A DNA stretch of 64,000 nt from Nannobrachium achirus (taxonomy: Eukaryota > Chordata > Actinopteri > Myctophiformes > Myctophidae). The position numbers and the translations under genes were made by a program. Positions 37,101 to 57,025 of this stretch are shown here, piece after piece. Under the pieces are notes generated by a model. The model worked only from the letters and a program-made list of their open reading frames with translations, did no database searches and was not told the DNA's origin. Every line of letters starts with the position of its first letter. Positions within the stretch are counted from its first letter, which is position 1. Location: assembly GCA_963921795.1 (NCBI GenBank), contig OY997653.1, forward strand, positions 7,290,651 through 7,354,650. The letters are read 5' to 3'.

Positions 37101-37843
37101 GAGGAGGGGCAGAGCTAAAGTATAGTGTTCTTTTGCATTTGAATGTGCTTTTTGGTCATTTGAATACTTAAGTATTTTTAAAGTAATAAATATGCAATCT
37201 GTGGTATTTAGGTCACACTGAAGCATTGTATGAAATGTCACATGGTCACATCTCTACTCAGTACTTTGTGATGTAATCAAACATTGTGTGTTGTTCTGTC
37301 CATCAGGTGTCTGTCCTCTCACACTGGACACAAACACAGCAGGACCATTCCTCTCTCTGTCTGAGAACAACAGAAAGGTGAGACGGACCAGAGAGGACCA
37401 ATCATATCCAGATCATCCAAACAGATTTCATGGCATCCCACAGGTTCTGTGTAGAGAGGCTCTGACTGGAGGCAGTTACTGGGAGGTCACCTGGAGTGGA
37501 GTGGTTCGTATAGCAGTGACTGAGAGTGGAATCGCCAGGGATGGATGGGGTGATGACTCTGTGTTAGGATACAACAGGTCCTGGAGTCTGGAATGTAATG
37601 GTCCAGACAACAGATACTCTGTACGTCACAATAAGAAGTTATCCATCCTCCGTGTCCGTCCCTCTGGCTGCTACAGAGTAGCAGTGTATGTGGACTGTCC
37701 TGCTGGCCATCTGTCCTTCTACAGAGTGTCCTCTGACACACACACACACCTGCACACCTTCCAGACCTCCTTCACTGAACCACTCTATGCTGGGTTCTAC
37801 GTGTTCAAGGGCTCCTCAGTGTCTTTGTGTCAGATAGAGTAAG

Positions 37844-37914
<71 letters not shown>

Positions 37915-38727
37915 CTCTCTCTCTCCATCTTTTTTTGTTACCCTAAAGCCTCACACCGGAAATAGTCAATCTACAAGCTCACAACATGTTGCATGTTGTA
38001 GATGTTTTATAGATATGTTATTTTATATTTATAACATGTATATGTTGTATAGATCTGGTATTTGATGTGTTTATAACATGTAGATGTTCTATAGATCTGG
38101 TATTTGATGTGTTTATAACATGTAGATGTTCTATAGATCTGGTACTTGATGTGTTTATAACATGTTCTATAGATCTGATATTTGATGTGTTTTATAACAT
38201 GTTGGTTTGTTCTGGTCTTTCAGAGCGGTCCTTCCATCCAGAGTTTCTCCCATCGTGATCACAGAAAACTCAACCAATGAATACAGGTATGTAAGTCACA
38301 TGACCAATGAATACAGGTCCGTAAGTCACATGACCAAGGAATACATGCAACATGTGACACATGAAGTCAATAGATATGACTGAATACATGCAACATGTGA
38401 AAACATGACTCCTCATGAAGTCAATAGAGATGATATCAATAACAATGTGTGTTTTGTGTCTCAGGCTCCAGCTCCCCGGGGCGGGGCTGTTCCAGTGCAG
38501 AGCGACAGGGTTGGTGTTTGGAACTACAGGGGAAGGAGACGTGGTCTTCAGGACTGCCTGTTGGGATGAAAGATGGCTCCAGACAACAGCAGGGACTCCT
38601 GCAGGGCCTCTGTTTGACATCCAGTGTCCTCAGAAGTGTGTCCGCCAGCTAGGCCTGCCACACTGTGCCGTCATGCCCGGTGAGGAGCAGCTCTCAGCAT
38701 TGTCCACAATTATACAGTTTAACAAAC

Positions 38728-38819
<92 letters not shown>

Positions 38820-41800
38820 CGTGCGCGCGCATGTGTTTCATCCTTATATTTCTCTTCCCATGTTTTCCTTGTTAGGGCCCCAGCACTGCAGCAGTGCGAA
38901 GCCCTATTGAAATTGCAAATATTATTGTTATTATTATTATTATTATTACCCTTATCAATAATGGATCGCATTTTTGAGGAACTAAACGTTCTCCAAAAGT
39001 TGCACAATATCAGTCGTTTCCGGTTTCTTTTCGAAACCAGAACTTCAAAGATGGCGGATTTTGATTTGCCATTGGAGTTTTTACAGTCTATGATCGTGAT
39101 TAATATTTCCTTGCAAATGTTAGGTCAAGGATGAAACACATTTTTCTAGTTGACATCATGGGGGTGCTATAACAGGCAATTTAATTCATATTTTATTCTA
39201 TTTTTTACAATACAATATTACAACACAACAGTTGTTGCTACTCCTACTCAGTAGCAACAATTTGCATGTAACCTACATAATCTACATAATGCACATAAAG
39301 CTATAAGCACTGCTGGAGCCATCAGTGAGAAACTCTGAACGCACAATCCTAGAACCCCCACGTAAAAGTATTCACATTGTCCTGGTATAGCGCCACCATG
39401 AGGTCAGTTTTAGCTACCTGGCCTGGCTCAGACCTGTGCTCCTAACTGATACATTTCTCTTGTTGTGTTTGCCAGATCCTTGCATCCAGCACCCTGGAGT
39501 GGTTTGTGACTGCTGTGAGGGAGGTATCTGGGGGACCAGGTATAAGTGTACAGTGTGTCCTGACTATGACCTGTGCACTGCCTGTCAGTACACTGGGCTT
39601 CATAAATACCACCGTCTGAGGTCCATCCAGCCCCCATCCCAGGTCAGAATATAATCATTACTAGAAAAGAAAATTCCTATGAAATTTTAAGTGTGCTTGC
39701 AGCTCGCTAAGTGTATGGCATGCATTAGCATTTTTTATATTAGCATTTGTAGCATTAGCATTTTTTTATATTAGCATTAGCATTTTAACGTTAGCATTAG
39801 CATTTTTACCATTAGCATTAGTGGAAGTAGCTGTTAGCATTAGCGGTTAGCCTTTAGATCTGTCAGACCACCCGTCAAGTTTGAGAACAGTAACATGTTA
39901 GGAACTGGAGTTATAGCTGTTTAAAGCTCAGCCAATAGGAAGACAGGTGGGGCTTAAGAGGGGCGGGGCTTGAGTAATAAGTCCCTATTGGCTGTTTAAG
40001 TTCAGACACAGAGTTTTGAGAGGGTACCATGCTGCAAACTGGAGTTATAGCTGTTTAAAGCTCAGCCAATAGGAAGACAGAGGGGGCGGGGCTAATCATT
40101 ACAGCTCGTTCCTATTGGACATCTAAGTACTCACGCCAAGTTTCGAGACGGTACCATGCTGCTACTGCTACTGATGCAGAAGTGATTTTTTTCAATGCCA
40201 CTACAATCTAGCATATTTATTTTTTCATTAAAAAAAAGGTCATGCCCACTTGCCCGAAAAGTAAATCTTCCATTATAAAATGATAGGTTAGATTTTAATT
40301 ACCACTCAATTTAACCCTTTTTTTTACCCCCTGGGGCTGCGATAAATCTCATAACTACATTTTTATCCAAATTCCTACATAGCTGTGATTGAATATGACT
40401 CGGGTTCTTGCCTATTTTATATTTGTAAGTGTTGCAACAGTGAAAACAGCACATTATAGGTAAACGCCAACGGTACTTTTATTTTAAATTCCACAGACCA
40501 GAAGACAGAGCACTGTTTAGACAGATATCTCAGGGCAACCTGAAAGCAAACTCTACGTTTTATTTACCTGCCGGGGGCAGGAGGGCAAGCCTTAGTGTCA
40601 AAAAAAAAAGGGAATAAAATAAATATATATATATATATATACAGGCATGCAAACTTGTAGCTTTTCGGCGAAAATTGCCGTTTTGAATCCAAATTGATCG
40701 TTTGTGTGATTCGTTCAGATTCGATGTAAAAATATTTGGGGGGGTGGGGGGGTGTCATGTCATCTAGGCTGCGTTGAGCGGCAGTGAGAAGAGGAGCGCT
40801 TTTTTCTCCTCTTGGCTCCGTCCAGTTTGTCAGTGCAGTAGTGGTGAAGGTGGCTGGGGGATATGGTCGTTTTATTTTTGGACAAATCAAGCGCTCGCTT
40901 TCTCTTGCCTGTGACGTCAACACCCATGCTTGACTGTGTCCAGTGCCTGCAGCCGGCAGCGCTGGACGGAGCGCTCAGCCAGTCTGCATACAGTCAGTCA
41001 CAGACGGAGCGGAGCTCAAATGGAGCACATAGTAAATAAACTTGGCTAGGTTGTCGTCGTTGATAGATAGTGTGGTGTAGTTGTGGATTGGACTTTTTAA
41101 TTCGCTTGTATCGCGATGCGGTCGCTATTCTGCATCAATGCGGTGACGTGACATCGATTATAGCCCACGTTTGTTGATTTTCCTCAACGGTGTGTTGCGA
41201 TAGTTTTGCTACATGCTAACGCTAAATTAGCTCTGGTCCATAGCGTTAGTGGAGAACTCCACATGCGAGCTAATCAACGCTATCATGCCGTTCCATCTGC
41301 CTCTTATTAGACAGAACAGAGATTTCTCGCATTTATTTTAAGATGGTGCAGAGAGAGGGTGAGAGAAAAATGAGGCAGTCACAGACAGTTCTCAAAGCGG
41401 AGAATACAACAATCGTCTGTGGTTTGACAACACTGTTTCCCAAGCACTGGGTTGGGACCCATTTGTGGGTCGCGAAAACATTTTTATGGGTCCCTTAATG
41501 TTTGTTTTCCTAAATTTAGTTTTGTATCATTTAAAAACATTCAAAAAACATTCTCCCCCAAAAAGAATAACATTTAATGATTTAAAATAAAGAAATGTTT
41601 TTTTCCTTCTAAATTCACGAATAAATAAAATAAAAGATCTAAGAAATTATCTTAGAAAACACTGGCCTATTTAAGAAGTAATATAGAAAATAGCTGATCT
41701 ACAAGCTCACAGCATGCATTGTCTCTGTCTATGCCTGTCTATTAAAGACAAGTCCCTAAATATTATAGGTTATTCCTATAACTATATCTGTAGGCTATAT

Positions 41801-42155
41801 TATATTTATAATTTTCTTCATTATATCTAGATAGATCAGTATGAGTATGAGTAAAGCCTCTATCAGAGTCCAGGGTGAAGAGCTATTCACTTCACCGCAT
41901 TGTAGTTTTCTAGCTATCACCTAGGCTTTGTTATGTATTTTTAGGTGATAGCTACACAACTACACCGTGGTGAAGTGAATAGCTATTCACCCTGGACTCT
42001 GTTAGAGCCTTTAGTCACTGTTTTACCCAGTTAGAATCGTGCAAATTCACCCTACCGACCCAAAAAAGGTCAAAAATTTCACGCCGCGCTACGCGCTGCG
42101 AACAATTTCACACCAAAAAAGTTGTCACCTTTTTCACCTTGGGGCTGTTTGCATG

Positions 42156-42196
<41 letters not shown>

Positions 42197-45100
42197 GTTT
42201 ATTCACCTGCATTATGTTTAACTATTTGTGTAGTTACTTTATAGAAATTATTCATTTTCCTTACACTACATTTACTTTAAGTTTACTCCGGAGGCACTTT
42301 GGAAATTGCTCAGAGTAATAAGTTACATTTAAAGGACAACTTTAGTTTTTTACAACAAGGGTTCATATTTTAGATTGTAATTAAAGAATATAAAAGATAA
42401 GTGAAGAGTTCATTTGCAAAAACAGATAACAGATAAACTGAAGTTGGGTGGATTTGACTAAGTAAAAATGACTTAACAAAATAGATGTATCATAAAAAAT
42501 GTAACTTTATTAGAAAATAGTTTTTCTTTTAATTTAAACTTATTTTTTTCCAACAGTCGATTTTTTATCAAAAACAGATAACTCCACAATTGATGTTTCA
42601 CCATTGAATTTTGCCATATCGAGGACGCAAAAAGGATTTCCAGAATTTTACAGGAGAGCAAAAACAAAGTTTTGACAACATACTTAAAGGAGCTATAGTC
42701 AACTTTTTCTTGAAAAACGGATGCTAAAATAAAAATAATGTTTCGAAAATATTTTATAAAAAAATAAGCTTCATATATGTGTTTCAATTAAAAAATGACC
42801 ACAAAAAGCGTAAAATAATGATAAAATAATCATTTTGGCCCTTTGTTTACATTTACAGGGCCCGTACTTTGTTTACATCCTAGTCTGTAGACTAGGATGT
42901 ACACCTACAATGAAAAAGTTGACTATAGCTCCTTTAAGTAGTCTTTACTTTTATAGGGGCCACATGTAGCCACCAGGGGGCACAATAGGGGACAACCCAG
43001 GGGCCCCTGGGGTGCTAAAGGTGCACCGTTGCTCCAATCTGCACCAAACTTGGCACAACCACTGTTCAGGGGTCTACCATGACAATAGTCACACCAGGGG
43101 CCACCTCACAGGCCACACCAGGGAATGTACCATATCAAGGGCCCCCGGGGGCCCCAGGGTGCCAAAGGCACACCATTGCTCCAATCTGCATCAAACTTAG
43201 CATGAACACTGTTTAAGGGTCTGCCATGACAATAGTCACACAAAGGGCTAAACCAGGGGCCCCAGTGTACCATATCAGAGGCCCCCGGGGGCCCCGGGGT
43301 GTCAAAGGCACACCATTGCTCCAATCTGCATCAAACTTAGCATGACCACTGTTTAAGGGTCTGCCATGACAATAGTCACACAAAGGGCTAAACCAGGGGC
43401 CCCAGTGTGCCATATCAGTGGCCCCTGGGGTCCCCAGGTGCCAAAGGCGCACTGCTGCTCTGATCTGCACCAAATATGGCACAAACACTGTCCATGGGTC
43501 TACCATGACAATAGTCACACCAGGGGCCACCTCACAGGCCTCATCAGGGGCCCCTGTATATCAGGGGCCACTGGGAGCCACACGCCACATGGGGCCACAT
43601 GGTAGACCCCTGAACATTGTTTGAGAAAATGTTGGTGCATAATGGGGCAACAGTGCGTCTATGGCACCCTGTGGCCCCTGGGGGCCACACATGGCCCCTG
43701 AGAGCCACACATGGCCCCTGGTGTGACTTTCCTCATGGCAGACCCCTGAACAGTGTTTGAGACACATTTGGTGCATAATGGGGCAACAGTGCACATAATG
43801 GGGCAACAGTGCGCCTATGGCACCCAGAGGCCCCTGGGGGCCACGCATGGCCCCTGGGAGCCACACATGGCCCCTGGTGTGACTATCTTCATGGCAGACC
43901 CCTGGAACAGTGTTTGAGACAAGTTTGGTGCATAATGGGGCAACAGTGTGCCTATGGCACCCAGAGGCCCCTGGGGGCCACACATGGCCCCTGGGAGCCA
44001 CACATGGCCCCTGGTGTGACTATCCTCATGGCAGACCCCTGAACAGTGTTTGAGACACTTTTGGTGCATAATGGTGGCAACAGTGTGCATAATGGGGCAA
44101 CAGTGCGCCTATGGCACCCAGAGGCCCCTGGGGGCCACACATAGCCCCTCGGAGCCACACATGGCCCCTGGTGTGACTATCTTCATGACAGACCCCTGGA
44201 ACAGTCTTTGAGAGAAGTTTGGTGCAAAACGGGGCAACAGTGCGCCTGTGGCACCCAGAGGCACCTGGGGGCCACACATGGCCCCTGGGGGCCACACATG
44301 GCCCCTGGTTTGACTATCCTCATGGCAGACCCCTGAACAATGTTTGAGACAAGTTTGGTGCATAATGGGGCACCATCTTGGATCACATGGTCTAAACACG
44401 CTGCCCAATGGATTTATCTGTTTCTGCAAACAAAGAGCTATGTCACTTGTCTGTTTTTGCTACAAAACCTGATCTTTGAGGGTGTTTAGAATGGGATATA
44501 TCTGCCTTAACAACAAAATTGATTTTATATTCTAATAAAACTCTTAACTGTTATTTACAATAGTCATCTCATTTTTTTCCAAAATGGCTTTTATCTGTTT
44601 TTGCAAATGAACTCTTCAAGTGTAAAAATGATTTCATTCACTTCTTTCTATTGTTTTAGAGATTCTTATTTCAGTGGCTGGGGGCATGCGTACAAGTGGC
44701 TAAATATGTCATTTTACACAGAATAAGCCCATTCCCAAGATACAACGCAACCTTTCATGGTTGGATGTGACTTATGGGGGCTAGAAGTGTTACTGTAAAT
44801 AGCAATAAAGAAACTGCTGGCTTATTGTGTCTAAAAAATACATATTTAGCAATGTGTACGCATGCCCCCATGCGTACACTCACTTTTTCTTTTCTCTAAT
44901 TACAATCTAAAATATGAACCCTTGTTGTAAAAAAACAAAGTTGTCCTTTAATGTCTCTTGAAAAAATAGATGATACATTCATTATCACCAAGAACACTGC
45001 CCCCTCATAGCTAAAGGCCCTGCCTTTGTACTGTCGGCCTGTAACAGACAGCCCCGATCGCAGTACTTGCACTAACTAGCATTACATTTATAAAATAATA

Positions 45101-47094
45101 ATAATAATGAAACCCTATCTCTCTTTTTTGTCTTTAAGACAGCAGACACGTATCCAAGAAGCCATAAGGGAGGTGAAGGTATGTATCTTGACAGAAGACA
45201 TTAACTATCATCGAGACCGAGCATTGCACAAGTGTGAAGCCCTGTTGAAATTATTTTATGCTCAAATTAATTGCATTTTTGAGGGCCTAAACTACTCAAA
45301 AAGGTTAGCACTTTTACACAAACATCACTCGTGGCGAATATATTACATATTTTAACTCTTTTACTGCTTTGAGCGTTAACGCTTGTCCCAATTCTGAACG
45401 CGGCGCAATACGAACGCTTGTTCTTTTACCTTGTTTGATGACTGTAAGCTGATGAGGGGTCGCGTGGGTGTGTACAGTAAAAACATCTCCCGTAATGCTG
45501 CTCCCAAATTTCCACTACACGTAAACATCAATGGATGTCCAATTCACTTCCTGGCTGTTCTCTGTGGACCTGATCAAGAAAATGCATTTCTACGCTCTGA
45601 ACGATGGAAAGAGGGGAGGGCCATTTCACATTTATTCCTTGCATAAGGCTTCCCCCTGCCGTCGGTTTGGCTACAGTACAGATATACAGTATGTGTCCAT
45701 TGAAAAAGATTTGGTTTTAATATAATCCATAGATACTTTCCTATAACATCGCAAAGGTAAGCTACTTTTTGCTGGCACCAGCACAAATAAATACATAATA
45801 AATATGGCAGTAGAACTGTTAATGGTCCTGAAAAGGTGCATGGCCTAATGGCTCTTTAGGACATTTTAAAGTTGAAGCCCTGCAATACGATTTCATCTAC
45901 ATGTATGAGAATTGAAACACATCTATATGATGTACTTACTTACGGAAAAGTCTCTTGGACCCATGGCCTAAACCCAACAGGAAGTCAGACATGTTGAATG
46001 TATTGTGGCGGTTTAGCGCATTTTATGAGGTGCAGACAGAATCACTTTCAGGTTTCTTTTGAAGTTTTGTTTACCATAAAATTAAATGTATGTTTTAAAA
46101 ACCTTTCCCAGGTGATGACCTTGGTGTGGTCCACATCACAGACGAGGGGAGACACCTCCTAAAACCACTGAGAGTGACCCAGACTCACGTGATTGTGAAT
46201 GTTCCCCACCTGTCTCTGTTTGGACTGTGGCTGAGGCTTTACGACACCTTGTTTCCATCTCGTGCTCAAGTTCTGCTGTTCCTTCAAGCACCCAAACGTG
46301 GCATACGGGAACTGAGTGTCTTGATGCTCCCGGGCAATGTGCCTCTCGACGAGGTAAAATATCTCATCTGTTCAGCAGCTAATATCTTAGAGAGTTTGAA
46401 TCTTGTTTTGTTTGACTTGAAATGGACTCAGAATGTGAAAAGACAACCAGTCTAGTCTGTAGGTGTGGCTCATTGGGTCATATTGTGTTGTCTGTAGGTG
46501 TGGTTCATTGGGTCATATTGTGTTGGTGCCATTGCAGGTGAAAGTGCAACATAAAGAGGATGAATTCATCAAGACCTCCTCTGCCTGTGATCTCACCCAC
46601 AACCAGTTGTACAAACTGCAATGTGCTTCACCTACCTGTAAAGTGAAACCTGAGGTATGTTCAAATTACAGCCCGCTTTTAATGTTAAAATAGTGTGACT
46701 TATGAAGACTATAATTGTCCTGTCAATTCTATTTCTACTGCAAGTCCAACGTTCATAAATATATTGTGAATTAAGCAAGTAATAAGGATACACTATTAAG
46801 TAATACAAGCCAATATATCAATAGTTATCTCTCTGTTTTCAGACCAAGACCAAGTATCATCTGAACTATGGACCAAATTACCATCCAACGTTCATGGTGA
46901 AGGTTGTGAATGCAGCAGAACTCCCATTGACATTACTCGGACCCGAGGACGGCCCAGTGTGGGAGGACGACATCATACTGGAAGGTAGTATTTCATTGAA
47001 TGTCTGGATGGCGGGGCGGCAGTGGCTCAGGGGTAGCTGGTAGAGCAGCCAGCAACCATGAGGTTTCCAGTTCCGTGAATGAATGTGTGTGTGA

Positions 47095-47161
<67 letters not shown>

Positions 47162-49284
47162 TAATGCACTATCATTGTAAAGCTCCTTGGATAAAAAGCT
47201 CTATATAAATGCACCATTTAGCATTATGTAGTTTAACACAGAGGTGGGACCACAACACAGTCTCTTCCCCACTCCTCAAATACAGTAGGTTTCGTCAACA
47301 GATGGAAGTGTCACTTGTAGCACTGTGTGGCGTCCTCTGGCGCAGTGGTTCTCAAATGGGGTCCTTGAGGGGTTCCAGGGGGTCCCTTAGTGGCTAACTA
47401 TGTTTATTTAACATCAAAATCAGTTGAACCTCTTAATATACGTCGGCTATTTGAAGATAGCAGATCTGCAAGCATCACAGTGCAATTGTAAATCTGCTAT
47501 TATAAACTCTTGAAAATATGGAATATCTTTGAAACATAATAACACAAACATTGTAATCAGTGGTGTAAAGTAACTAAGTACATTAACTTAAGTACTGTAC
47601 TTAACTCATTGAGTGCCAGCGCCCTCTAGGGGCCAAAGAATGCCAGCGCATCTCTCATTGGCGAGCGCTTTAGCTTCCAGGACTTCACCTTCCAGGACCT
47701 GACGTGCTCACGTTCATGCACGGCATGGAAATGTCCCGGATGAAGATGCTAACAGAATGGCTATTCCCATTTTGTCATCTAAAAGATCATTTTTGGGCGA
47801 TTTCGCCGTAAATAAACCTCGCGCCGCTTCCCTATGACACAATCCAGAGATATAAGCCTTTAAAGATGTGGTCTTTCATTGGATTAGGCGGAGATTGGCG
47901 ATTGCGTTCGCAAATAACGTCCGGCCGGGACGTTGCTAGCTTTCGGCTAGTAGCTACAAAAATCAGGCCAGGCTTCAGAAGGCCTCTTATCATTTTTATT
48001 CATTTCATTAAATATCCCGGACTAGTTCGGGAGAGGCACCATGGAATACGTTGCGCCGCCTACAATGAACATTGGGTGAACATTGGGGGGGTCTAAACTT
48101 TATTTTAAACCATTTTCAATGGAATATATCGTCGGACAGAGTAGAATGGCTTGCTGGCTAGCGGCTAGCGAGCCGGGACCACCCACGTTGCTCCAAGCAG
48201 CTCGGGGTAAGTAAAATAGCAAATAAAAAATTGTTTTTGATCCCGAATATCCCGAACTAGTTCGGGAGAGGCACTGTATGAGTTAAGTACACTTTTGAGG
48301 TATTTGAACTTTACTTGAGTATATCCAATTTCCAATACTTTTACTTCTACTTCACTACATCTTGGATTCAAATATTGTACTTTTACTCCACTACATTTAT
48401 TTGAACACTTTAGTTATGAGTTACTTTGCAGGTGTAAATTATAATATTATAAAACACACATTAACCCACTTAAGCCTTAATTTATACCTAAGCTATTTGA
48501 GAATAGCTGATCTACAAGCTCACAAGCTTCAAACTTTTAGTACTTTTACTTTTGGTACTTTAAGTACATTTGGAGGTCAATACTTTCATACATTTACTCA
48601 AGTACATTTTGAATTCTGGACATTTACTTGTAACGGAGTACATACAGTGCAGTATTGATACTTTTACTTAAGTACAAAATGTGAGTACTTTTTCCACCTC
48701 TGATTGTAATGGGGGTCCTTTGTACAAAATACTTGTACTTGTATAGATAGGGGGTCCATGGCCGAATTCATATACAGTTCTTGCTTCTCACAGTGCTTAA
48801 TGCAGTCAGTCAGTGTCAATCCGACAGTTTAATAATGTATTTTTATTCTAACTAAAAACACTGCATTATTTTATCTCCAGAATCCCATCCAGCCACCAGA
48901 CCACGTCTGCCAGCCGTGTCCACAGTGACCACACCCCTTCAGGAAGTGACCACGTCCCTTCAGGAAGTGATGCAACCACTTCCTGTGTCCACAGTGACCA
49001 CACCCCTACAGGAAGCAAAGATATTGAAGTCCGTGCGGTCAGAGTTCGTCAACGGAGTGTCGGAGGCCGTGATCAAAGGTCTGCTGGACATCCTGTACGA
49101 TGATAAGGTTCTCAACTATGAAGAGATGGACGAGGTCAGAGATTTGACGGGCAGAGCTGAGAAAGCGAGACGACTAATCGACATGGTGAGAAAGAAAGGG
49201 AACAAAGCTTCTTGGAGGATGATCACTGGACTTCATCAACTAGATCCAACCCTTCATGAGGAACTGTGTTTGGACAAACCCTGA
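2447..49284 (+). CDS. NLR family receptor: [14 protein letters not shown]30.2-FIIND(ZZ)-CARD
   Basis: This is a multi-exon gene. Coding exons are 2734-4546, 26226-26399, 29997-30170, 32058-32231, 32894-32986, 35157-35203, 37307-37838, 38224-38286, 38465-38679, 39476-39642, 45139-45178, 46112-46353, 46538-46654, 46843-46984 and 48881-49284, plus a weaker candidate at 2447-2508. From 2734 the exons sum to 4,397 nt. That is two bases closing a codon, then 1,465 codons including the stop, with matching phases at every junction. The family (fish NLR-C/NLRP-like) is a cytosolic innate sensor. NACHT drives ATP-dependent oligomerisation, LRR and B30.2 probably sense ligand, and FIIND-CARD is the NLRP1/CARD8-type output that recruits caspase-1-like proteases. 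The insertion of a ZZ zinc finger between the two FIIND halves is unusual. The true first exon and promoter were not found. No disabling mutation is visible. The exon chain is predicted from splice sites, phases and domain homology, without transcript evidence. Confidence 0.85.
2519..2625. repeat. (CT)n followed by AAATAAGT-type repeat
   Basis: About 27 CT units run to 2572, followed by degenerate TAAATAAGTAAATAAATA repeats. The tract lies in the short presumed intron before the FISNA-NACHT exon. Confidence 0.95.
2734..4546 (+). CDS. NLR exon: FISNA, NACHT ATPase and winged-helix region
   Basis: The acceptor is TTGTGTTCCAG ending at 2733 and the donor is GTTAGT at 4547. The exon is 1,813 nt, usual for this fish exon, and is open throughout. 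Counting from GAT at 2736, residues 1-85 are the FISNA region that precedes NACHT. Walker A GIAGIGKT is residues 96-103 (3021-3044). Walker B LDGLDE is residues 171-176 (3246-3263). A sensor-like [11 protein letters not shown] follows, then the winged-helix and superhelical region. Residues 439-450 (4050-4085) are an unbroken Asp/Glu run encoded by GAT/GAA repeats, within a stretch that also holds flanking Ser-Glu codons. The exon ends in phase 2 at KAR, the normal boundary before the first LRR exon. The catalytic motifs look intact, so ATP binding is expected. Confidence 0.93.
4593..4917. repeat. Dispersed repeat with 'GGCGCTATAACAGGCC' core
   Basis: It begins with a TTGCGACAGAAGGTCGCA near-palindrome and ends with TTATCGCTGCTTGCAGCTATA. 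It contains two copies of a block built around TGGTGGCGCTATAACAGGCC and AATGTGAGAAGGG. Related sequence lies inverted at 63330-63490 and partly at 39160-39420. No coding capacity is seen. Confidence 0.65.
4918..4997. repeat. (TACA)n microsatellite
   Basis: About 18 ATAC units, adjacent to the end of the preceding dispersed repeat and the start of the next inverted-repeat element. Confidence 0.95.
5011..5687. mobile_element. Non-autonomous DNA transposon with ~55-bp inverted ends
   Basis: The left end begins TCAGCACAAAAAGAAAGGAA and continues through CGGTCCATTATATCTCCCC. The same sequence appears inverted at 5632-5687. The end motif resembles those of fish Tc1-type elements, which is an impression and not a search result. 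The middle contains two diverged direct copies of a block with CCACACGTTTGGCTGTGT (around 5349 and 5516) and an inverted third copy near 5070. No transposase is seen. Confidence 0.75.
5690..6290. repeat. Dispersed repeat block (copy 1) starting with palindrome GCGACCGAAGGTCGC
   Basis: A GCGACCGAAGGTCGC palindrome is followed by AT-rich sequence with GTGATGTCAGTGTGATGTCA. Then come diverged copies of a ~150-bp unit (TGTGGATAACACTATATATG to AGGAAGTGATGTCACATGAC). A near-identical block lies at 50705-51135. No protein is supported. Confidence 0.8.
6293..6313. repeat. Short interstitial TTAGGG run
   Basis: Three to four GGGTTA units at the edge of the preceding repeat. It is too short to mean more than a chance or repaired end. 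Confidence 0.7.
6314..6774. other. Intronic, nothing recognised
   Basis: This lies within the first long NLR intron. No open frame with recognisable homology, no RNA gene and no clear repeat boundary could be found. Confidence 0.5.
6775..6818. repeat. (TC)n microsatellite
   Basis: About 22 TC units. Confidence 0.95.
6820..7185. repeat. 65-bp minisatellite, 5-6 units
   Basis: The unit contains ATAAATGTAAACAGAGGTAC, then AGTCAGACATTAAGGC and ATAACACAATACTTTATTAG. The units are diverged, and one is shortened around 6940. Confidence 0.85.
7186..8934. other. Intronic, mostly unassigned; weak inverted repeat and LINE-like tail
   Basis: A CCTGCAGGGTTTATGTTA motif near 7692 is repeated inverted near 8147, so the two sites may bound an old element. 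Near 8560-8690 there is sequence of the TTATTTGACAGGGACAGTA kind, resembling a fish LINE tail. No gene is seen. Confidence 0.4.
9065..9955 (-). pseudogene. 5'-truncated L2-type LINE, RT C-terminal fragment
   Basis: On the minus strand, a 206-codon frame (9304-9924) carries the C-terminal L2 RT pattern: [33 protein letters not shown], and a final [10 protein letters not shown] before KTHLFRLHL. The preceding block [16 protein letters not shown] is in another frame (9758-9955), so there is a frameshift. The 3' tail carries the common teleost motif TTTAGCAGACGCTTTTAATC (inverted in register) near 9088. It is a dead truncated copy. Confidence 0.88.
10130..11371. repeat. 128-bp tandem array, about 9.6 units
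   Basis: The unit contains TTTCGGCCAATCAGAAGAGG, then GGGGCTAAGTTAAACCAATT, AAGCTGAAGGACTCTGAAAC and GTACGACAAACGGTTGA. Spacing between equivalent points is 128 bp. The short repeated minus-strand frames it creates are by-products of the period. The array ends exactly where the large hAT element is inserted. Confidence 0.92.
12086..13330. repeat. Triplicated ~245-bp segment with stem-loop, inside the hAT element
   Basis: A segment starting GTGATCATAACACGATCGCC occurs at about 12086, 12722 and 13088. It ends near ACCACAGGAAAAAGGCATT. Each copy has an inverted pair, CCCAGGCTTCATTT and AAATGAAGCCTGGG, around a CTTCCGATCGCC loop; the middle copy has one mismatch. A second linked block (TGTCATTTGATAGTTCTTCT to TTTTTGGGGGGTAATTTTTC) is found in full around 12547, 12976 and 14997, and in part near 12661. 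Confidence 0.85.
13419..14956. mobile_element. hAT-like element nested inside 11372-15201
   Basis: The inverted ends are perfect over 15 bp: CAATGTTCCCTCTAA and TTAGAGGGAACATTG. They are flanked by perfect 8-bp duplications ATTCCTTG at 13411-13418 and 14957-14964. The uninterrupted target (ACAGGATTCCTTGTAAGAG) is present near 12505 in the tandem copy of the host segment, which shows the empty site. The element carries (CT)n tracts at 13583-13626 and 13679-13726. It also holds a 'GTGGGTCCAGGGACCCCC' dispersed repeat at 14128-14325. No transposase is recognisable. Confidence 0.93.
15480..16395. repeat. Diverged tandem units 'TTCCTATTGGCTGAGCTTTA'
   Basis: Units of about 110-130 bp begin TTCCTATTGGCTGAGCTTTA and continue with CATAACTCCAGTTTGCAGCA and TCTCGAAACTTGGTGTG. 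They occur at 15530, 16088, 16210 and 16307, and inverted at 39900-40165. The unit matches the tail of the TAGCATT-array family. There is no coding content. Confidence 0.7.
16817..18961 (-). CDS. L2-type LINE reverse transcriptase frame
   Basis: A 714-codon open frame. RT landmarks in order are [17 protein letters not shown], the [12 protein letters not shown] block, [21 protein letters not shown] and the catalytic YADD (plus-strand region 17640-17665). It ends with the L2-type C-terminal block ([32 protein letters not shown]). All catalytic motifs look intact. The endonuclease lies upstream in another frame, with overlap at 18858-18961, so one small indel separates them. The true protein would be a fusion, and the first ~30 codons of this frame are probably out of register. 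Confidence 0.88.
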   Translation of the reverse strand: MWAISFSLTISIFVLTLTLLPSLRPEVTILTDTNDLVGHFNNLCLTALDVIAPLKIKNKRAGGINSSPWMNDDIRSLKRECRQVERKWKKCKEMVHFTHMKELLSVFNTKTDEARTTYFSNLINSNLNKPRALFAVINTLVNPAPPAVPVFSNDDCEQFLSFFINKVHNIRSNINPPSSNTIVDFPPPVSTLCQFNTISLLDLSPILSHMHPSSSPGDIIPTTLLKDVFHCLSPYILEIINSSLSSGCVPDHFKHAIIQPLLKKPTLDPSVHSNYRPISKLPFISKVLEKVVCNQLLNFLKSNNIFDKFQSGFRQKHSTETALLRVSSDILMRADVGECSVLLLLDLSAAFDTIDHSILLDRLQRCVGITGSALEWFSSYLSARSVSVAVNSYASSSVPLTCGVPQGSILGPILFSLYMLPLGTLISSFEGISYHCYADDTQLYLSFKQNNLSKLTVMYDCLTSIKNWMAHNYLQLNADKTEILIIGPESSSNDMRLSLGPLAMNVKQTVKNLGVFFDNNLNLEFHVKKVTQACFYHLRNIAKIKSILSPQDLEKIMHAFVSSRLDYCNGLYTTLSRSSLSRLQLVQNTAARILTSTNRRAHITPVLASLHWLPIKARIVFKILLITFKALHGLAPLYIVDLLPPKTNARSLRSSNKGLLEVPVSYLKTKGDRAFAVVAPTLWNALPLPLKTAVSVDSFKRLLKTHLFQIHFTS
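18858..19532 (-). CDS. L2-type LINE apurinic-like endonuclease frame
   Basis: A 224-codon open frame with the APE-type endonuclease pattern: [13 protein letters not shown], then [10 protein letters not shown] with the catalytic Glu, [27 protein letters not shown] with the metal-site Asp and Asn, HTLDLVFT and a final LSDHKYIRF with the catalytic His. The frame then breaks at about 18900 before the RT region. The first methionine may not be the native start, since the open frame continues upstream. Confidence 0.85.
   Translation of the reverse strand: MALINARSACNKPFVVRDFVKSHGLDFLFITETWLKEKDNVTVNKLCPTDCSFINAPRSSRGGGLATVFSKQFVCRSVEIEHFNTFEALLLRIGTVNPLFILLCYRPPGSKSEFLKEFPDFLSSIVMKVDHLVLTGDFNFHIDNPLDILANEFISITKSLNLTQHVSGPTHDQGHTLDLVFTLGLDINNLCVGDFFLSDHKYIRFNIDFIAESPPRGDHSDRHQ
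19626..20695. other. Intronic, mostly unassigned; half-hairpin at 20391-20430
   Basis: No gene is seen. A repeat-like phrase 'GTGGTTCTAAAAACCTTTTA...GGGACCCAAA' (20325-20390) leads into one arm of the recurrent hairpin (AGCAGATCTACAAGTTCACA, 20399-20418). A (CA)n run starts at 20696. Confidence 0.45.
20733..21969. mobile_element. hAT-like element inserted in a (CA)n tract
   Basis: The ends are inverted: TAGTGTTGTAGTCGAGTCCA at the left and, at the right, ACTCGAGTACTACAACACTA. They are followed inward by many GAGTCC and GAGACC motifs in both orientations. Both flanks are (AC)n (20696-20732 and about 21973-22003), consistent with insertion into a microsatellite whose duplication cannot be separated from the repeat. 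The 1.2-kb interior has no recognisable transposase. Confidence 0.75.
22010..22719. other. Intronic, nothing recognised
   Basis: AT-rich sequence with no coding, RNA or clear repeat signal. Confidence 0.5.
22720..23240 (-). repeat. tRNA-derived SINE-like composite repeat (minus)
   Basis: Read on the minus strand, 23050-23240 gives GGCGCAGTTGGTAGCGCTG with an A-box-like start, then GTGAGGTCGC-type sequence and a B-box-like GGGTTCGATTCC, followed by the widely seen fish SINE phrase GTGTGGAGTTTGCATGTTCT. The left part (22790-22980) matches 30950-31140 in inverted orientation. It is repetitive DNA with no evidence of a functional tRNA. Confidence 0.7.
23617..23693. repeat. Recurrent hairpin, complete copy
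   Basis: Left arm TAGTGAAAACAGCAGATCTA then CAAGCTCACAACGCG. Right arm GCTGTGAGCTTGTAGATTGG then ATATTTTCAC. It belongs to the hairpin family described in the findings. Confidence 0.8.
23700..26225. other. Intronic, no gene recognised
   Basis: AT-rich intron with scattered TAGGCCTA motifs, a T-rich run (25260-25290), a (CAG)5 run near 25310 and a run of about 17 G at 25698-25714. No splice-flanked domain, RNA gene or defined transposon end was found. Its end carries the acceptor for the first LRR exon. Confidence 0.5.
26226..26399 (+). CDS. NLR exon: leucine-rich repeat 1
   Basis: 174 nt, the standard unit length for fish NLR LRR exons. The acceptor is TCTGTCATTACAG and the donor is GTACAG at 26400. 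Phase 2 at both ends joins KAR to [18 protein letters not shown]. Later leucines ([12 protein letters not shown]) keep the LRR spacing, but the consensus is more degenerate than in the next two exons. The donor is followed almost at once by a C-run and (CA)n. Confidence 0.88.
26412..26470. repeat. (CA)n microsatellite just after the LRR1 donor
   Basis: About 26 CA units after a short C-run, starting about 12-20 nt inside the intron. Confidence 0.95.
26515..27440. repeat. TAGCATT-array family, second copy
   Basis: The left end TTCTAGAAAAGGAATGTCCT and TTTTAAGTGTGCCTGCAG match the family start. TTAGCATT arrays lie at 26578-26650 and 27175-27400. The right end carries CACGTTTTGATGTATATATT and GCGGGGGTGGCGTAAATCGT. 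About 520 bp (26650-27170) between the arrays is a separate GC-rich sequence of unknown origin. Confidence 0.65.
27441..28050. other. Intronic, nothing recognised
   Basis: No coding or RNA signal. A weak ATTTAGCAGACG motif near 27706 hints at an old LINE tail. Confidence 0.45.
28052..28156. repeat. (ATCT)n and (CA)n microsatellites
   Basis: Four to five ATCT units followed by about 41 CA units (28075-28156). Confidence 0.95.
28273..28570. repeat. TAGCATT-array family, compact inverted copy
   Basis: It starts ATCAAAACGTGCGGCTAGGC, continues with CATAACTCCAGTTCAAAGCA and an inverted array (AATGCTAATGCTAA), then GTTGCACACACTTAGCGAGC and TGCAGGCACACGTAAAATG. It ends near TTCTCTTTTCTAGTA. This short copy shows the family's end-to-end order in under 300 bp. 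Confidence 0.75.
28732..29193. mobile_element. TTAA-flanked MITE, family A copy 1 (462 bp)
   Basis: Flanked by TTAA at 28728-28731 and 29194-29197. The ends are CTCTCCCAACGCTTTGAACG and CTGGCAGTATGAGAG, short inverted ends around CTCTC/GAGAG. TTAA duplication without further target change is the mark of piggyBac-type transposition. Closely related copies: 45356-45818 and 59225-59692. Confidence 0.85.
29198..29996. other. Intronic, unassigned; GGGTCAAAATGACCC palindrome at ~29301
   Basis: The palindrome matches the ends of the TTAA element at 58439-59870, so a related decayed element may surround the preceding MITE. Otherwise nothing is recognised up to the LRR2 acceptor. Confidence 0.45.
29997..30170 (+). 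CDS. NLR exon: leucine-rich repeat 2
   Basis: 174 nt, phase 2 at both ends, acceptor TCTCCATTCAG and donor GTTAGA. The translation [20 protein letters not shown] continues into [19 protein letters not shown] and ends in a CRLEILR block. This is the canonical ribonuclease-inhibitor-type LRR pair of fish NLR-C proteins. Confidence 0.95.
30171..30564. other. Intronic; degenerate hairpin copy at 30440-30506
   Basis: Around 30440-30506 the arms GCAGATCTACAA, TCTACAAGCTCACAAT and TTGTAGATCGGCTATTTT form an imperfect copy of the recurrent hairpin, next to a run of G. Nothing else is recognised. Confidence 0.6.
30565..30760 (+). repeat. tRNA-derived SINE-like element
   Basis: GGCACGGTGGTGCAGCAGTA resembles the tRNA-derived head with an A-box. 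GGGTACGATTCCCGCC is B-box-like. GTGTGGAGTTTGCATGTTCT follows, as in the copy at 22720-23240 and fragments near 51138 and 53000. It is unlikely to be a working tRNA because the fold around the boxes is not conserved. Confidence 0.75.
30950..31140. repeat. Dispersed repeat shared with 22790-22980 (inverted)
   Basis: Shared phrases include CTTGGACTACTCATGCA and GGCAGAGGGAGAGCAGAGCC with their reverse complements in the earlier copy. No coding content. Confidence 0.7.
31245..31326. repeat. Recurrent hairpin, complete copy with CG-rich loop
   Basis: Arms CTAGTGAAAACAGCCGATCT and ACAAGCACACAACGCCTCGC pair with GCGAGGTGTTGTGTGCTTGT and AGATCTGCTGTTTTCACTA. The arm reads GCACAC where most copies read GCTCAC, and the opposite arm changes to match. 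Confidence 0.9.
31327..32057. other. Intronic; repeat shared with 61796-61910 and a tRNA-like B-box
   Basis: 31327-31430 (GATGAAGCAGGGCTTTGCTT) matches 61800-61910 after the corresponding hairpin, so hairpin and flank travel together there. On the minus strand, 31823-31920 contains GTTTCGAATCCTAGTTGGG, a B-box-like sequence suggesting an old tRNA-derived SINE. No gene. Confidence 0.5.
32058..32231 (+). CDS. NLR exon: leucine-rich repeat 3
   Basis: 174 nt, phase 2 at both ends, acceptor TTTATTATTCAG and donor GTGAAT. It reads [20 protein letters not shown], then [20 protein letters not shown] and CTLEILR. It is a canonical LRR exon and fully open. Confidence 0.95.
32232..32893. other. Intronic, nothing recognised
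   Basis: No domain or repeat end is visible. The region ends in a (CT)n-rich polypyrimidine tract (32862-32893) serving the next acceptor. Confidence 0.5.
32894..32986 (+). CDS. NLR exon: short terminal leucine-rich repeat
   Basis: 93 nt, phase 2 at both ends, acceptor CTCTTTTCAG and donor GTGAGT. It reads [20 protein letters not shown] then [12 protein letters not shown], half the length of the other LRR exons. Short final LRR exons before the linker are usual in the family. Confidence 0.9.
32987..33368. other. Intronic, nothing recognised
   Basis: No coding or RNA signal apart from a short (CATGA)n run near 33150. Confidence 0.5.
33369..33541. mobile_element. Short inverted-repeat MITE, copy 1
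   Basis: The left end ACCTGTCCATACTGTCTC pairs with GAGACAGTATGGACAGGC at the right. Internal CCGACAAAAAGTTTGG pairs imperfectly with CCAAACTTTTCATCTG. A diverged second copy lies at 33620-33813. Confidence 0.75.
33620..33813. mobile_element. Short inverted-repeat MITE, copy 2
   Basis: GGCCTGTTCATACTCTCTCC at the left pairs with GGAGAGAGTATGAACAATCC at the right. Several internal motifs (TTTTTGTCGGAAAGGTC, GAATTAGAGTTCGG) are shared with copy 1 in one or the other orientation. Confidence 0.75.
33814..35156. other. Intronic, AT-rich, nothing recognised
   Basis: A tandem duplication near 33840-33960 repeats ATGATGTCATTCA(C/G)GCAGTATAGAA. The rest is AT-rich without coding signal. Confidence 0.5.
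35157..35203 (+). CDS. NLR exon: linker between LRR and B30.2
   Basis: 47 nt, phase 2 in and phase 1 out, acceptor CTTCCTTTTAAAG and donor GTAAGT. It reads [16 protein letters not shown]. Similar short charged linkers precede B30.2 in fish NLR-C genes. Phases on both sides fit, which supports it despite its size. Confidence 0.82.
35219..35545. repeat. (TG)n tract followed by TTAGCATT array
   Basis: About 44 TG units begin 16 nt after the linker-exon donor (35219-35307). A degenerate TTAGCATT array follows (35308-35545), another member of the TAGCATT family without clear ends. Confidence 0.9.
36454..36530. repeat. Recurrent hairpin, complete copy (GCGCGG loop type)
   Basis: AAAAATAGCAGATCTACAAG and CTCGCAGCGCGGCAC pair with GTGCTGCGCTGTGAGCTTGT and AGATCTGCTATTTTT. 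The stem is interrupted only by a few G-T pairs. The same loop type recurs at 62395-62452, 62797-62873 and 62930-62972. Confidence 0.9.
36824..36930. mobile_element. Short MITE (copy 3 of 3)
   Basis: It shares the core CCATTCTGACATGCCGCCAT, then CATTCACTTCTAATTCTGG, and the GTAGGAATGGGGG end with copies at 1591-1711 and 60719-60873. The target duplication is not clear here. Confidence 0.65.
37307..37838 (+). CDS. NLR exon: PRY/SPRY (B30.2) domain
   Basis: 532 nt, phase 1 in. It reads [20 protein letters not shown] (PRY start), then SYWEVTW, WSLECNG and [15 protein letters not shown], ending [14 protein letters not shown]. All core B30.2 landmarks are present, and the length (about 177 residues) is normal. 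B30.2 is a ligand-recognition fold common at the C-terminus of fish NLRs. The donor is GTAAGG at 37839. If it is not used, the frame stops two bases into the intron (TAA, 37840-37842). So the exon can serve as an internal exon or, unspliced, as the terminal one. Confidence 0.93.
37845..37911. repeat. (CA)n tract six bases after the B30.2 exon donor
   Basis: About 33 CA units, then (CT)n. CA repeats near 5' splice sites are known targets of hnRNP L in vertebrates. An effect here is inference. Confidence 0.95.
37960..38205. repeat. Half hairpin and 42-bp minisatellite
   Basis: AGTCAATCTACAAGCTCACA at 37967-37986 is one arm of the recurrent hairpin. About 4.5 copies of a 42-bp unit follow (CTATAGATCTGGTATTTGAT, then GTGTTTATAACATGTAGATG). 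The unit itself contains ATAGATCTG and TGTAGAT pieces, so it may have grown from hairpin sequence. Confidence 0.75.
38224..38286 (+). CDS. NLR exon: link from B30.2 to FIIND
   Basis: 63 nt, phase 2 at both ends, acceptor CTGGTCTTTCAG and donor GTATGT. It reads [20 protein letters not shown] then YR, which runs straight into the ZU5-like half of the FIIND. Correct phase on both sides supports that the B30.2 exon is spliced onward at least in some transcripts. Confidence 0.85.
38287..38464. repeat. Short direct duplications in the small FIIND intron
   Basis: The end of the previous exon is duplicated (AATGAATACAGGT at 38276-38288 and again near 38306), as is GAATACATGCAACATGTGA (38339 and 38382). 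The duplicated AATACAG|GT(C/A) could act as a cryptic donor. Confidence 0.7.
38465..38679 (+). CDS. NLR exon: FIIND, ZU5-like half
   Basis: 215 nt, phase 2 in and phase 1 out, acceptor TTTTGTGTCTCAG and donor GTGAGG. It reads [20 protein letters not shown], then [29 protein letters not shown] and [13 protein letters not shown]. These are the hallmark blocks of the first half of the FIIND (NLRP1, CARD8, PIDD type). The usual continuation is the UPA half, here reached only after the ZZ cassette or by skipping it. Confidence 0.92.
38729..38816. repeat. (TG)n microsatellite
   Basis: About 44 TG units beginning 50 nt after the ZU5 exon donor. Confidence 0.95.
38875..39420. repeat. Dispersed repeat 'GGGCCCCAGCACTGCAGCAG'
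   Basis: It starts GGGCCCCAGCACTGCAGCAG, continues with TGCGAAGCCCTATTGAAATT and an (ATT)n run, and ends with a TATAGCGCCACCATGAGGTC block related to 4593-4917 and 63330-63490. A fragment recurs at 45215-45350. Confidence 0.7.
39476..39642 (+). CDS. NLR exon: ZZ-type zinc finger (p62-like)
   Basis: 167 nt, acceptor TTGTGTTTGCCAG and donor GTCAGA, phase 1 in and phase 0 out. It reads [20 protein letters not shown], then [21 protein letters not shown] and [10 protein letters not shown]. The eight likely zinc ligands are in place: C-x2-C at 39505/39514, C-x2-C at 39547/39556, C-x2-C at 39574/39583 and the H-x2-H pair at 39601/39610. The sequence resembles the SQSTM1/p62 ZZ far more than an average ZZ. 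It also keeps the Asp after the first Cys and the two Asp of PDYD, which in p62 bind N-terminal residues. In the predicted protein it lies between the ZU5 and UPA halves of the FIIND. ZZ domains bind peptides or histone tails, and the ligand here is unknown. Confidence 0.92.
39657..40170. repeat. TAGCATT-array family copy after the ZZ exon
   Basis: ACTAGAAAAGAAAATTCCTA and TTTTAAGTGTGCTTGCAGCT match the family start. A TTAGCATT array follows (39715-39855), then two inverted units containing TCAGCCAATAGGAAGACAG. Confidence 0.75.
40171..40640. other. Intronic, nothing recognised
   Basis: AT-rich, ending in a (TA)n run at 40624-40640 that is the insertion site of the next element. Confidence 0.5.
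40641..42160. mobile_element. Inverted-repeat element (1.5 kb) inserted in (TA)n
   Basis: ACAGGCATGCAAAC at the left end is matched by GTTTGCATGTCTGT at the right, with (TA)n on both sides hiding the target duplication. Inside are a 'GTTGGGACCCATTTGTGGGT' dispersed repeat (41430-41690), one arm of the recurrent hairpin (41690-41712) and a long foldback (41853-42013). No transposase frame is recognised. Confidence 0.7.
41853..42013. repeat. Foldback: ~65-bp inverted arms, short loop
   Basis: AAAGCCTCTATCAGAGTCCA, then GGGTGAAGAGCTATTCACTT, pair with AAGTGAATAGCTATTCACCC and TGGACTCTGTTAGAGCCTTT. The inner part GCTATCACCTA pairs with TAGGTGATAGC. The loop is about 20 nt. Confidence 0.9.
42688..42933. 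mobile_element. TTAA-flanked MITE nested in the previous element (246 bp)
   Basis: TTAA at 42684-42687 and 42934-42937. AGGAGCTATAGTCAACTTTT at the left matches AAAAGTTGACTATAGCTCCT at the right, giving an almost perfect terminal repeat. It is nested in 42333-44947. Confidence 0.92.
43010..44390. repeat. Satellite array in head-to-head orientation
   Basis: 43010-43560 holds units containing GCTCCAATCTGCACCAAACT, CTGTTCAGGGGTCTACCATG and ACAATAGTCACACCAGGGGC. 43600-44390 holds the same unit inverted (GCCCCTGGTGTGACTATCCT, CATGGCAGACCCCTGAACAG, AAGTTTGGTGCATAATGGGG). Units are about 110-150 bp. The many overlapping frames here are products of the period and not genes. Confidence 0.88.
45139..45178 (+). 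CDS. NLR microexon after ZZ (40 nt)
   Basis: Acceptor TTTTTTGTCTTTAAG, donor GTATGT. It reads [13 protein letters not shown] in phase 0. Its length (39+1) converts the phase 0 end of the ZZ exon to the phase 1 needed by the UPA exon. Without it, joining ZZ directly to the UPA exon would hit a stop within 17 codons. The phase fit and strong splice sites support it, although the protein sequence itself is not recognisable. Confidence 0.72.
45356..45818. mobile_element. TTAA-flanked MITE, family A copy 2 (463 bp)
   Basis: TTAA at 45352-45355 and 45819-45822. It begins CTCTTTTACTGCTTTGAGCG and ends ATGGCAGTAGAACTG. It shares GATGACTGTAAGCTGATGAG and GGGGTCGCG with copies at 28732-29193 and 59225-59692. 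Confidence 0.85.
46112..46353 (+). CDS. NLR exon: FIIND, UPA half start
   Basis: 242 nt, phase 1 in and phase 0 out, acceptor ACCTTTCCCAG and donor GTAAAA. It reads [35 protein letters not shown], then [19 protein letters not shown] and LPGNVPLDE. The H-L-S triplet at 46207-46215 sits where autoprocessing FIINDs have H-F-S with cleavage before Ser. His and Ser are kept, and Phe is replaced by Leu. Whether this FIIND self-cleaves cannot be told from sequence. Confidence 0.92.
46457..46524. repeat. 34-bp tandem duplication in intron 3' end
   Basis: CTGTAGGTGTGGCTCATTGG with GTCATATTGTGTTG occurs twice just before the next acceptor. Confidence 0.85.
46538..46654 (+). CDS. NLR exon: FIIND, UPA middle
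   Basis: 117 nt, phase 0 at both ends, acceptor GTGCCATTGCAG and donor GTATGT. It reads [20 protein letters not shown], then [18 protein letters not shown]. The position and length fit the middle of the UPA. Confidence 0.88.
46843..46984 (+). CDS. NLR exon: FIIND, UPA end
   Basis: 142 nt, phase 0 in and phase 1 out, acceptor CTCTGTTTTCAG and donor GTAGTA. It reads [20 protein letters not shown], then [19 protein letters not shown], the usual C-terminal FIIND block with VWE. Confidence 0.9.
47012..47218 (+). repeat. tRNA-derived SINE-like repeat with (TG)n inside
   Basis: GGCGGCAGTGGCTCAGGGGT then AGCTGGTAGAGCAGCC resembles the head of the copy at 57026-57275 (inverted). (TG)n at 47097-47157 separates it from the tail AAAAAGCTCTATATAAATGC. 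Confidence 0.65.
47558..48702. mobile_element. Tol2-like hAT MITE with perfect 8-bp duplication
   Basis: CAGTGGTGTAAAGTAACTAA at the left, AAAATGTGAGTACTTTTTCC then ACCTCTG at the right. It is flanked by ATTGTAAT at 47550-47557 and 48703-48710. The interior is the familiar AAGTAC/ACTTTTACT-rich sequence. Half a recurrent hairpin lies at 48494-48530. It hosts the TTAA element at 47605-48282. A diverged copy lies at 54150-54770. Confidence 0.93.
47605..48282. mobile_element. TTAA-flanked MITE nested in the Tol2-like element (678 bp)
   Basis: TTAA at 47601-47604 and 48283-48286. CTCATTGAGTGCC at the left matches GGCACTGTATGAG at the right. Removing it restores the Tol2-like phrase GTACTTAAGTAC. 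The motif TATCCCG(G/A)ACTAGTTCGGGAGAG occurs at 48013 and 48247. Confidence 0.92.
48881..49284 (+). CDS. NLR exon: C-terminal CARD and stop
   Basis: 404 nt, phase 1 in, acceptor TTTATCTCCAG, stop TGA at 49282-49284. The first ~45 residues are a repeated linker with [10 protein letters not shown] and close variants. The CARD follows: [15 protein letters not shown], then [39 protein letters not shown] and [10 protein letters not shown]. This is the caspase-1/ASC-type CARD seen at the end of NLRP1-like proteins and would couple the receptor to a CARD caspase or adaptor. Confidence 0.95.
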
Positions 49285-56882: not shown

Positions 56883-57025
56883 CTGGACAAAAAGATAAAG
56901 AAACAGGGTCAACCGTTAAGTATTTGAGCTGTAACTAAATGTTTTGTAGTTATTGTGGTATTTATTACTAGTACAGACTAATTTTTAACTCTGCGGTACC
57001 GACAGTGTCTCTGGCTAAAAATAAA

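Follow-up and report, generated by a model that had tools for sequence, protein, structure and literature searches.

The closest described systems are the NLRP1-type sensors, the ZZ finger of SQSTM1/p62 and the NLR genes of fish. As described in PMC8081665, PMC7857732 and PMC7483925, ZU5 pairs with the first UPA strand and holds NLRP1-type sensors off, and removal of the N-terminal half leads to firing. N-degrons, N-terminal Arg among them, are bound by the p62 ZZ, whose pocket for N-terminal Arg is lined by D129, N132, R139, D147 and D149 (PMC6197226 and PMC6098011). The portions of PMC12436146 and PMC11508797 that treat the ends of fish NLRs name FIIND-CARD or B30.2, and no ZZ. In the present study, a window of 64,000 nucleotides (nt), the whole stretch of DNA analyzed (C16:7290651-7354650 in the 1.66-Gb Nannobrachium achirus assembly), was found to carry a plus-strand NLR gene in which a two-exon cassette with a p62-type ZZ finger lies within the ZU5 part of the FIIND. 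The exons, splice signals and phases, the kinship with SQSTM1 and the recurrence in five paralogues were observed directly.

Compared with NLRP1 and CARD8 (6x6c, 7crw, 7jkq), the gene was alike in ZU5, UPA and CARD by sequence, with the catalytic His and Ser in register. However, it possessed an insertion in ZU5 that the NLRP1/CARD8 chains as aligned did not have, and it differed in LS for FS, in a Leu at the place of E1195 and in a B30.2 exon before the FIIND. Teleost NLR-C/NLR-B30.2 genes shared the FISNA-NACHT, LRR and B30.2 make-up, whereas the window gene had a FIIND and CARD after the B30.2 exon and a ZZ within the FIIND. The ZZ of SQSTM1 was the best match in the PDB and had the same donor string at its exon end in the genome's own copy. 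Unlike SQSTM1, the window ZZ sits in the ZU5 of an NLR, and no PB1, LIR or UBA was noticed nearby, where no dedicated search for them was made. The ZZ-array genes of the same genome (for example L056) contained the same ZZ exon and 40-nt exon, but they had the ZZ in tandem, and no FIIND was found in L056. The first-pass annotation of this DNA knew of no described NLR with a ZZ inside its FIIND. This was in agreement with the open-access literature, which yielded no report of a ZZ with a FIIND or NLR, although automatic annotations of such proteins may exist.

Structure of the cassette and its insertion site

The exons from ZU5 to the stop codon were as follows.

38224..38286, plus strand: ZU5a, first small ZU5 exon (junctions, frame)
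38465..38679, plus strand: ZU5b, main ZU5 exon, ending in phase 1 (Pfam FIIND 82.4 bits, positions 8-78 of 131)
39476..39642, plus strand: ZZ exon of p62 type, phase 1 to 0, 167 nt (Pfam ZZ 40.8 bits; SQSTM1 ZZ top in the PDB)
45139..45178, plus strand: 40-nt linker exon, phase 0 to 1 (same exon with splice signals behind ZZ exons at other loci)
46112..46353, plus strand: UPA1 exon, coding for the last part of ZU5 (with the catalytic His and the LS equivalent of the cleavage site) and the first part of UPA (Pfam FIIND 86-127 and UPA-FIIND 2-32; NLRP1/CARD8 alignment)
46538..46654, plus strand: UPA exon 2 (Pfam UPA-FIIND 33-75, 24.6 bits, under the cut-off of 27 alone)
46843..46984, plus strand: UPA exon 3, ending in phase 1 (Pfam UPA-FIIND 77-116, 22.6 bits, under the cut-off of 27 alone)
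48881..49284, plus strand: CARD exon with stop codon (Pfam CARD 59.4 bits; junction)

The coordinates and phases of the first-pass annotation held for the ZU5b end at 38679 in phase 1, the ZZ exon, the 40-nt exon and UPA1, all with AG/GT sites. From the SPRY exon to the stop codon, every junction was AG/GT, and the frame was unbroken with or without the ZZ and 40-nt exons. Together these two exons measured 207 nt with phases 1-1, a sum divisible by 3, which neither exon is alone. Inclusion gave 640 amino acids and skipping 571, counted from the SPRY exon on, and both forms were open to the stop in the CARD exon. The proposed symmetric cassette was thereby borne out, and alternative splicing would be allowed by the arithmetic of the frame.

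The ZZ had been placed between the ZU5 and UPA halves of the FIIND, which has to be corrected. The Pfam FIIND model was matched at positions 8-78 before the cassette (82.4 bits) and 86-127 after it (42.1 bits), and the insertion therefore falls within ZU5 and not where ZU5 meets UPA. Pfam UPA-FIIND scored 19.4, 24.6 and 22.6 bits on the three UPA exons, scored exon by exon and each below the whole-protein cut-off of 27, and the region matched the FIIND (ZU5-UPA) family by sequence models. The skipped form aligned continuously with the NLRP1 and CARD8 chains through the insertion place, apart from the loss of a few residues in the loop. NLRP1 H1186 was matched by the His of VVHI and S1213 by the Ser of PHLS, both in the UPA1 exon; the roles of these NLRP1 residues are described in PMC9700037 and PMC8081665. 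Accordingly, the ZZ sits a short way ahead of the catalytic His and N-terminal to the cleavage site, and the exon after the cassette starts five residues upstream of that His. In the 27 UPA1 stretches compared, the His was present in 26 and the Ser in 22, and both were retained in the window and in two relatives on C7 (C7a and C7b).

Identity of the ZZ finger

The frame 39391-39651 matched Pfam ZZ (PF00569) with 40.8 bits and an E value of 1.9e-10 (cut-off 21.4), and its eight zinc ligands were complete (C, C, C, C, C, C, H, H). The search of the PDB with the window ZZ returned 31 chains, of which ranks 1-13 were SQSTM1 or SQSTM1 fusions with a top score of 66.2 bits, while the best non-SQSTM1 chain reached 38.1 bits. 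The claim of a p62/SQSTM1-type ZZ with all eight ligands in this exon was therefore upheld on the ligands and on the match to SQSTM1, which exceeded that to any other ZZ of known structure, NBR1 lying outside this comparison. The locus L028, which we take to be the genome's own SQSTM1, was recognized by eye from the sequence after its ZZ, against the p62 sequence. The window ZZ shared 66% identity with it over the ZZ, and the DNA similarity covered 39477-39636, nearly the exact ZZ exon. Moreover, the donor of the ZZ exon, CAG|GTCAGAATAT, was the same in the two genes. At the five pocket positions the window ZZ had D, E, R, D and D, that is, four of five as in p62 and five of five as in its own SQSTM1.

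Recurrence of the cassette in the genome

The FIIND family is large in this genome, with at least 151 matches when 150 of 410 candidates were scored. For ZU5b, 150 of 221 candidates were scored; the 75 matches with short open frames were used as split-FIIND exons, and the remaining 75 were taken as single-exon FIINDs. For UPA1, 80 of 150 matches were used. The ZZ search gave 91 matches from 104 candidates, one with an internal stop. A downstream UPA1 partner was found for 74 of the 75 split-FIIND exons, and the unpaired one, C16:18804242, had a partial UPA1 in L041. The gap from ZU5b to UPA1 in pairs without a ZZ between had a median of 408 bases; its maximum of 19.8 kb reflects one C3 UPA1 paired twice, and C3:22884600 has its own UPA1 in L053. 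A ZZ lay between ZU5b and UPA1 in five of the 74 pairs (two on C16, three on C7) and at most 15 kb behind UPA1 in five others, all on C15, and in the other 64 paired genes no ZZ was detected. When 15 split loci of low rank in the list were read over their whole length (9.8-10 kb each), ZU5b and UPA1 were present in every one and a ZZ match in none. A same-strand ZZ exon lay within 12 kb downstream of 9 of the 75 split-FIIND exons, against 0.025 expected under even scatter. A chance ZZ match was rejected on the Pfam score, the SQSTM1 matches in the PDB and this enrichment.

The genes with the ZZ in ZU5 kept the frame in two ways. The second C16 gene (C16b) had a ZZ and then the 40-nt exon at C16:7463276 (98% identity) before UPA1, and C7a had a 170-nt ZZ exon with the 40-nt exon KADTFARTQKGGE, open when joined to UPA1. 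Thus, the window, C16b and C7a use the ZZ and 40-nt exons, while C7b and C7c use a lone ZZ exon of phase 1-1 (171 or 201 nt) with a new donor GTAATAC that fits UPA1 directly, and no 40-nt exon was seen in the stretches of these two that were read. For C7, the ZU5b donor was visible in L059 only, the L058 and L060 pieces ending in 18-nt tandem repeats. In all three C7 loci (L058, L059, L060) the end of the ZU5 exon beside the insertion site carried such repeats, coding PHCAIM repeats, and the ZU5 loop therefore seems to tolerate length. The relatives L047-L050, which have no ZZ, also possessed a phase-1 intron at the same place of ZU5.

The C15 gene that was read (L054, C15:49342800-49350800) had the order ZU5, UPA, ZZ, a 55-nt exon (our reading) and CARD, with fitting phases. 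Its ZZ lies behind the cleavage site and has lost the equivalent of Asp149. In addition, a 40-nt linker exon followed by UPA1 was observed at C7:69613293-69614432 (plus strand), with no ZZ or ZU5b match listed near it on that strand; this is perhaps a partial sixth gene.

Origin of the cassette and selection

Two findings went beyond the first-pass annotation: the cassette is repeated in paralogues, and the 40-nt exon is known to accompany ZZ exons elsewhere in the genome. Complete with acceptor and donor, this exon was present near ZZ exons at many other loci (19 copies in the genome search), some of them in ZZ-linker-ZZ-linker arrays. The suspicion that it was a mere frame-fitting guess was rejected, since it recurs with its splice signals. 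This recurrence beside ZZ exons suggests that ZZ and linker form a module of their own, repeatable or movable as a 1-1 unit, and the cassette appears to have spread by exon shuffling. In L056 (C20:6091600-6101500), an exon with two ZZs was followed by the 40-nt linker and then by an extended coiled coil and a CARD; the opposite strand of that locus carried a CARD resembling it. Of the ZZ arrays, L056 alone showed a CARD behind its ZZs; in L057 (5 kb behind a C14 pair) none was seen by eye.

Two pieces of the intron before the ZZ, 38872-38926 and 38959-39117, matched introns behind the 40-nt exons of C24 arrays and were collinear with them. Pieces of the same stretch were also present in L049 and L052, which are FIIND loci without a ZZ. 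The stretch may be a dispersed repeat, and we give little weight to it as a sign that the cassette was imported with its flanking intron. The 76 bases directly before the ZZ occurred solely in loci with a ZZ exon, in 22 of the 57 loci examined. A single ancestral capture of all the ZU5-ZZ-UPA genes was disfavored, weakly, in tests on a ZZ tree with few supported forks. In the approximately unbiased test, the p value was 0.042 when the five ZZs were held together, 0.049 for these five with C15 and 0.135 for the three C7 ZZs alone; gene conversion could be a source of this tree signal.

The zinc core was retained, with all eight ligands in 30 of 33 copies and in all five ZU5-ZZ genes. In a neutral simulation of the other copies, 32 of 32 were stop-free against 10.3 expected and 29 of 32 had all ligands against 1.7 expected, a comparison flattered by the copies being best search matches, one of which (L012) has a TGA just past the counted stretch.

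Other exons and neighboring features of the window

The upstream exons of the gene were as follows.

2734..4546, plus strand: FISNA-NACHT-winged helix-HD2 exon (NACHT 91.9 bits, NLRC4_HD2 103.1 bits, FISNA and NOD2_WH by Pfam in frame 2661-4574; ends by eye)
26224..26400, plus strand: LRR-like exon region, approximate (tblastn with a hand-written fish LRR consensus, E 2e-10)
29974..30168, plus strand: LRR exon region, approximate (Pfam LRR_6 32.1 bits; tblastn)
32074..32232, plus strand: LRR-like exon region, approximate (tblastn with the hand-written LRR consensus, E 3e-13)
37307..37838, plus strand: PRY-SPRY (B30.2) exon, phase 1 to 2 (Pfam PRY 70.1 bits, SPRY 31.1 bits; junctions)

The domain order by Pfam and tblastn was FISNA-NACHT, LRRs, PRY-SPRY, FIIND and CARD. 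NACHT, LRR, FIIND and CARD were collinear on one strand as in NLRP1-like NLRs, in line with the earlier assignment to one NLR with a FIIND, and all the NLR exons of the window presumably belong to one transcript. At 37830-37845, the PRY-SPRY frame reached a TAA (CQIE*) that is part of a good donor site (GA|GTAAGG). An NLR-B30.2 end results if the sequence is read through, and the FIIND-CARD form if it is spliced. A reverse transcriptase frame (16820-18994, minus strand; Pfam RVT_1 124 bits) marked a retrotransposon inside the NLR gene, and a 498-aa C2H2 zinc-finger array frame lay behind the gene on the opposite strand (55441-56934, minus strand). The intron separating the ZZ and 40-nt exons contained GC-rich minisatellite-like repeats at 42960-44370 (by eye).

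Proposed mechanism and alternatives

An NLRP1-like fish NLR (NACHT-LRR-B30.2-FIIND-CARD) would have acquired the two exons of the ZZ cassette within the phase-1 intron that interrupts ZU5. In the mature protein, the p62-type ZZ would stand on a surface loop of ZU5 just ahead of the strand with the catalytic His, folding independently while ZU5 closes around it, and it would travel on the N-terminal inhibitory fragment. Its pocket may bind basic N-termini that are free (N-degrons) or some other ligand of p62. The cargo would then destabilize ZU5 or take the N-terminal fragment to proteasomal or autophagic removal, and the loss of the fragment would free UPA-CARD, which would amount to NLRP1-style functional degradation gated by a ligand. 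N-degron pathways feed the N-terminal degradation step of NLRP1 and CARD8. A link between the level of p62 and NLRP1 activity in human skin tumor cells is described in PMC9800582. The cassette is very probably spliced into the FIIND reading frame, and a folded, ligand-binding ZZ is fairly probable, while ligand-gated release as described is doubtful. The explanation as a whole, an NLRP1-like NLR with a ZZ cassette in ZU5 and ligand-gated release, stands at an even balance between right and wrong. We infer that the most likely use is a peptide sensor on the inhibitory fragment, acting by ligand binding or ligand-driven turnover.

Several points weigh against this explanation. The splicing of the cassette was deduced from genomic sequence. 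Asn132 of the pocket was not kept in the window ZZ, where it was Glu as in the genome's own SQSTM1, and the N132L mutation weakens binding by p62 (PMC6098011). AlphaFold on the ZZ exon alone gave a predicted local distance difference test score of 49.1, which supports neither side and was not used. Pairwise ratios of nonsynonymous to synonymous substitutions between other ZZ copies and the window lay between 0.44 and 2.24, on a small number of synonymous sites, and did not show purifying selection over the whole ZZ exon. The two C16 copies differed alike in exons (ZZ 2/167, ZU5b 2/215) and introns (26/1427), and both of their ZZ differences were amino-acid changes. The FS motif, which PMC8081665 describes as required for catalysis and as conserved between NLRP1 and CARD8, read LS in the window, and the C7 relatives also had Leu before Ser. 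LS was likewise found in L022, L055 and other split relatives, whereas the eight single-exon FIINDs L001-L008 had FS. The place of human E1195 was Leu in the window. Self-cleavage is uncertain because of these two replacements; the first-pass statement that the ZZ adjoins the self-cleavage region holds for the position in the sequence. The sequence HL/S is found at the self-cleavage site of adhesion G-protein-coupled receptors.

Other explanations were considered. The cassette could be an optional exon pair, its inclusion spoiling ZU5 folding or self-cleavage and giving a silent or dominant-negative receptor, its skipping an active one. The symmetric 207 nt with both forms open, the insertion near the catalytic His and a ZZ donor (GTCAGA) that we judge weak at +3 are consistent with this, but the same donor string is used by the ZZ exon of the genome's own SQSTM1, the 18-nt repeats in the C7 ZU5 loop suggest that length is tolerated, and a mere spoiler would not need its eight zinc ligands kept, so that we consider it unlikely. 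It is improbable that the two exons of the cassette are what remains of a ZZ-array gene in the intron and are skipped by the FIIND transcript, leaving the ZZ outside the receptor. About 90 ZZ matches genome-wide (91 counted), many arrayed with the same 40-nt exon, could have landed anywhere, and the C16 pair shows similar intron and exon divergence. However, the same FIIND intron is occupied in five genes, two distinct exon layouts serve to keep the frame there, all five have the ligands and an uninterrupted frame, and blastn of the window's intron and the genome ZZ list gave no other ZZ exon in it. The notion of an integrated decoy is transferred from plant NLRs. A ZZ mimicking p62 would make pathogen factors aimed at p62 hit the receptor, and damage to ZU5 would free UPA-CARD. 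The clear kinship with the SQSTM1 ZZ (66% identity to the genome's own copy) and the location of the ZZ before the cleavage site, with the inhibitory part, would suit a decoy, but nothing in the analysis points to a pathogen factor acting on the ZZ, and we regard it as quite improbable.

Biological significance

The ZZ would stay with the inhibitory fragment in the C16 and C7 genes and with the effector fragment in the C15 genes. A ZZ that remains attached to the released CARD half would be expected to work in another way, and the two classes can therefore be compared within one genome. Moreover, the same genome provides natural controls: 64 paired split-FIIND genes in which no ZZ was detected, five with the ZZ inside ZU5 and five with it behind UPA. 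The ZZ-bearing receptor would be a natural test of the control of ZU5 over UPA-CARD. More speculatively, and in our view unlikely, the NLR family may have repeatedly built a p62 piece into its autoinhibitory domain, with captures more than once, before (C16, C7) and behind (C15) the cleavage site. The ZZ would then serve as an inbuilt N-degron receptor or decoy, and destruction of the inhibitory half, with release of UPA-CARD, would be triggered directly by an N-degron or by an attack on surfaces that resemble p62. An N-degron-type finger in ZU5 would unite sensing and degradation in one chain, and it would provide an example from animals of an NLR that has integrated a foreign domain.

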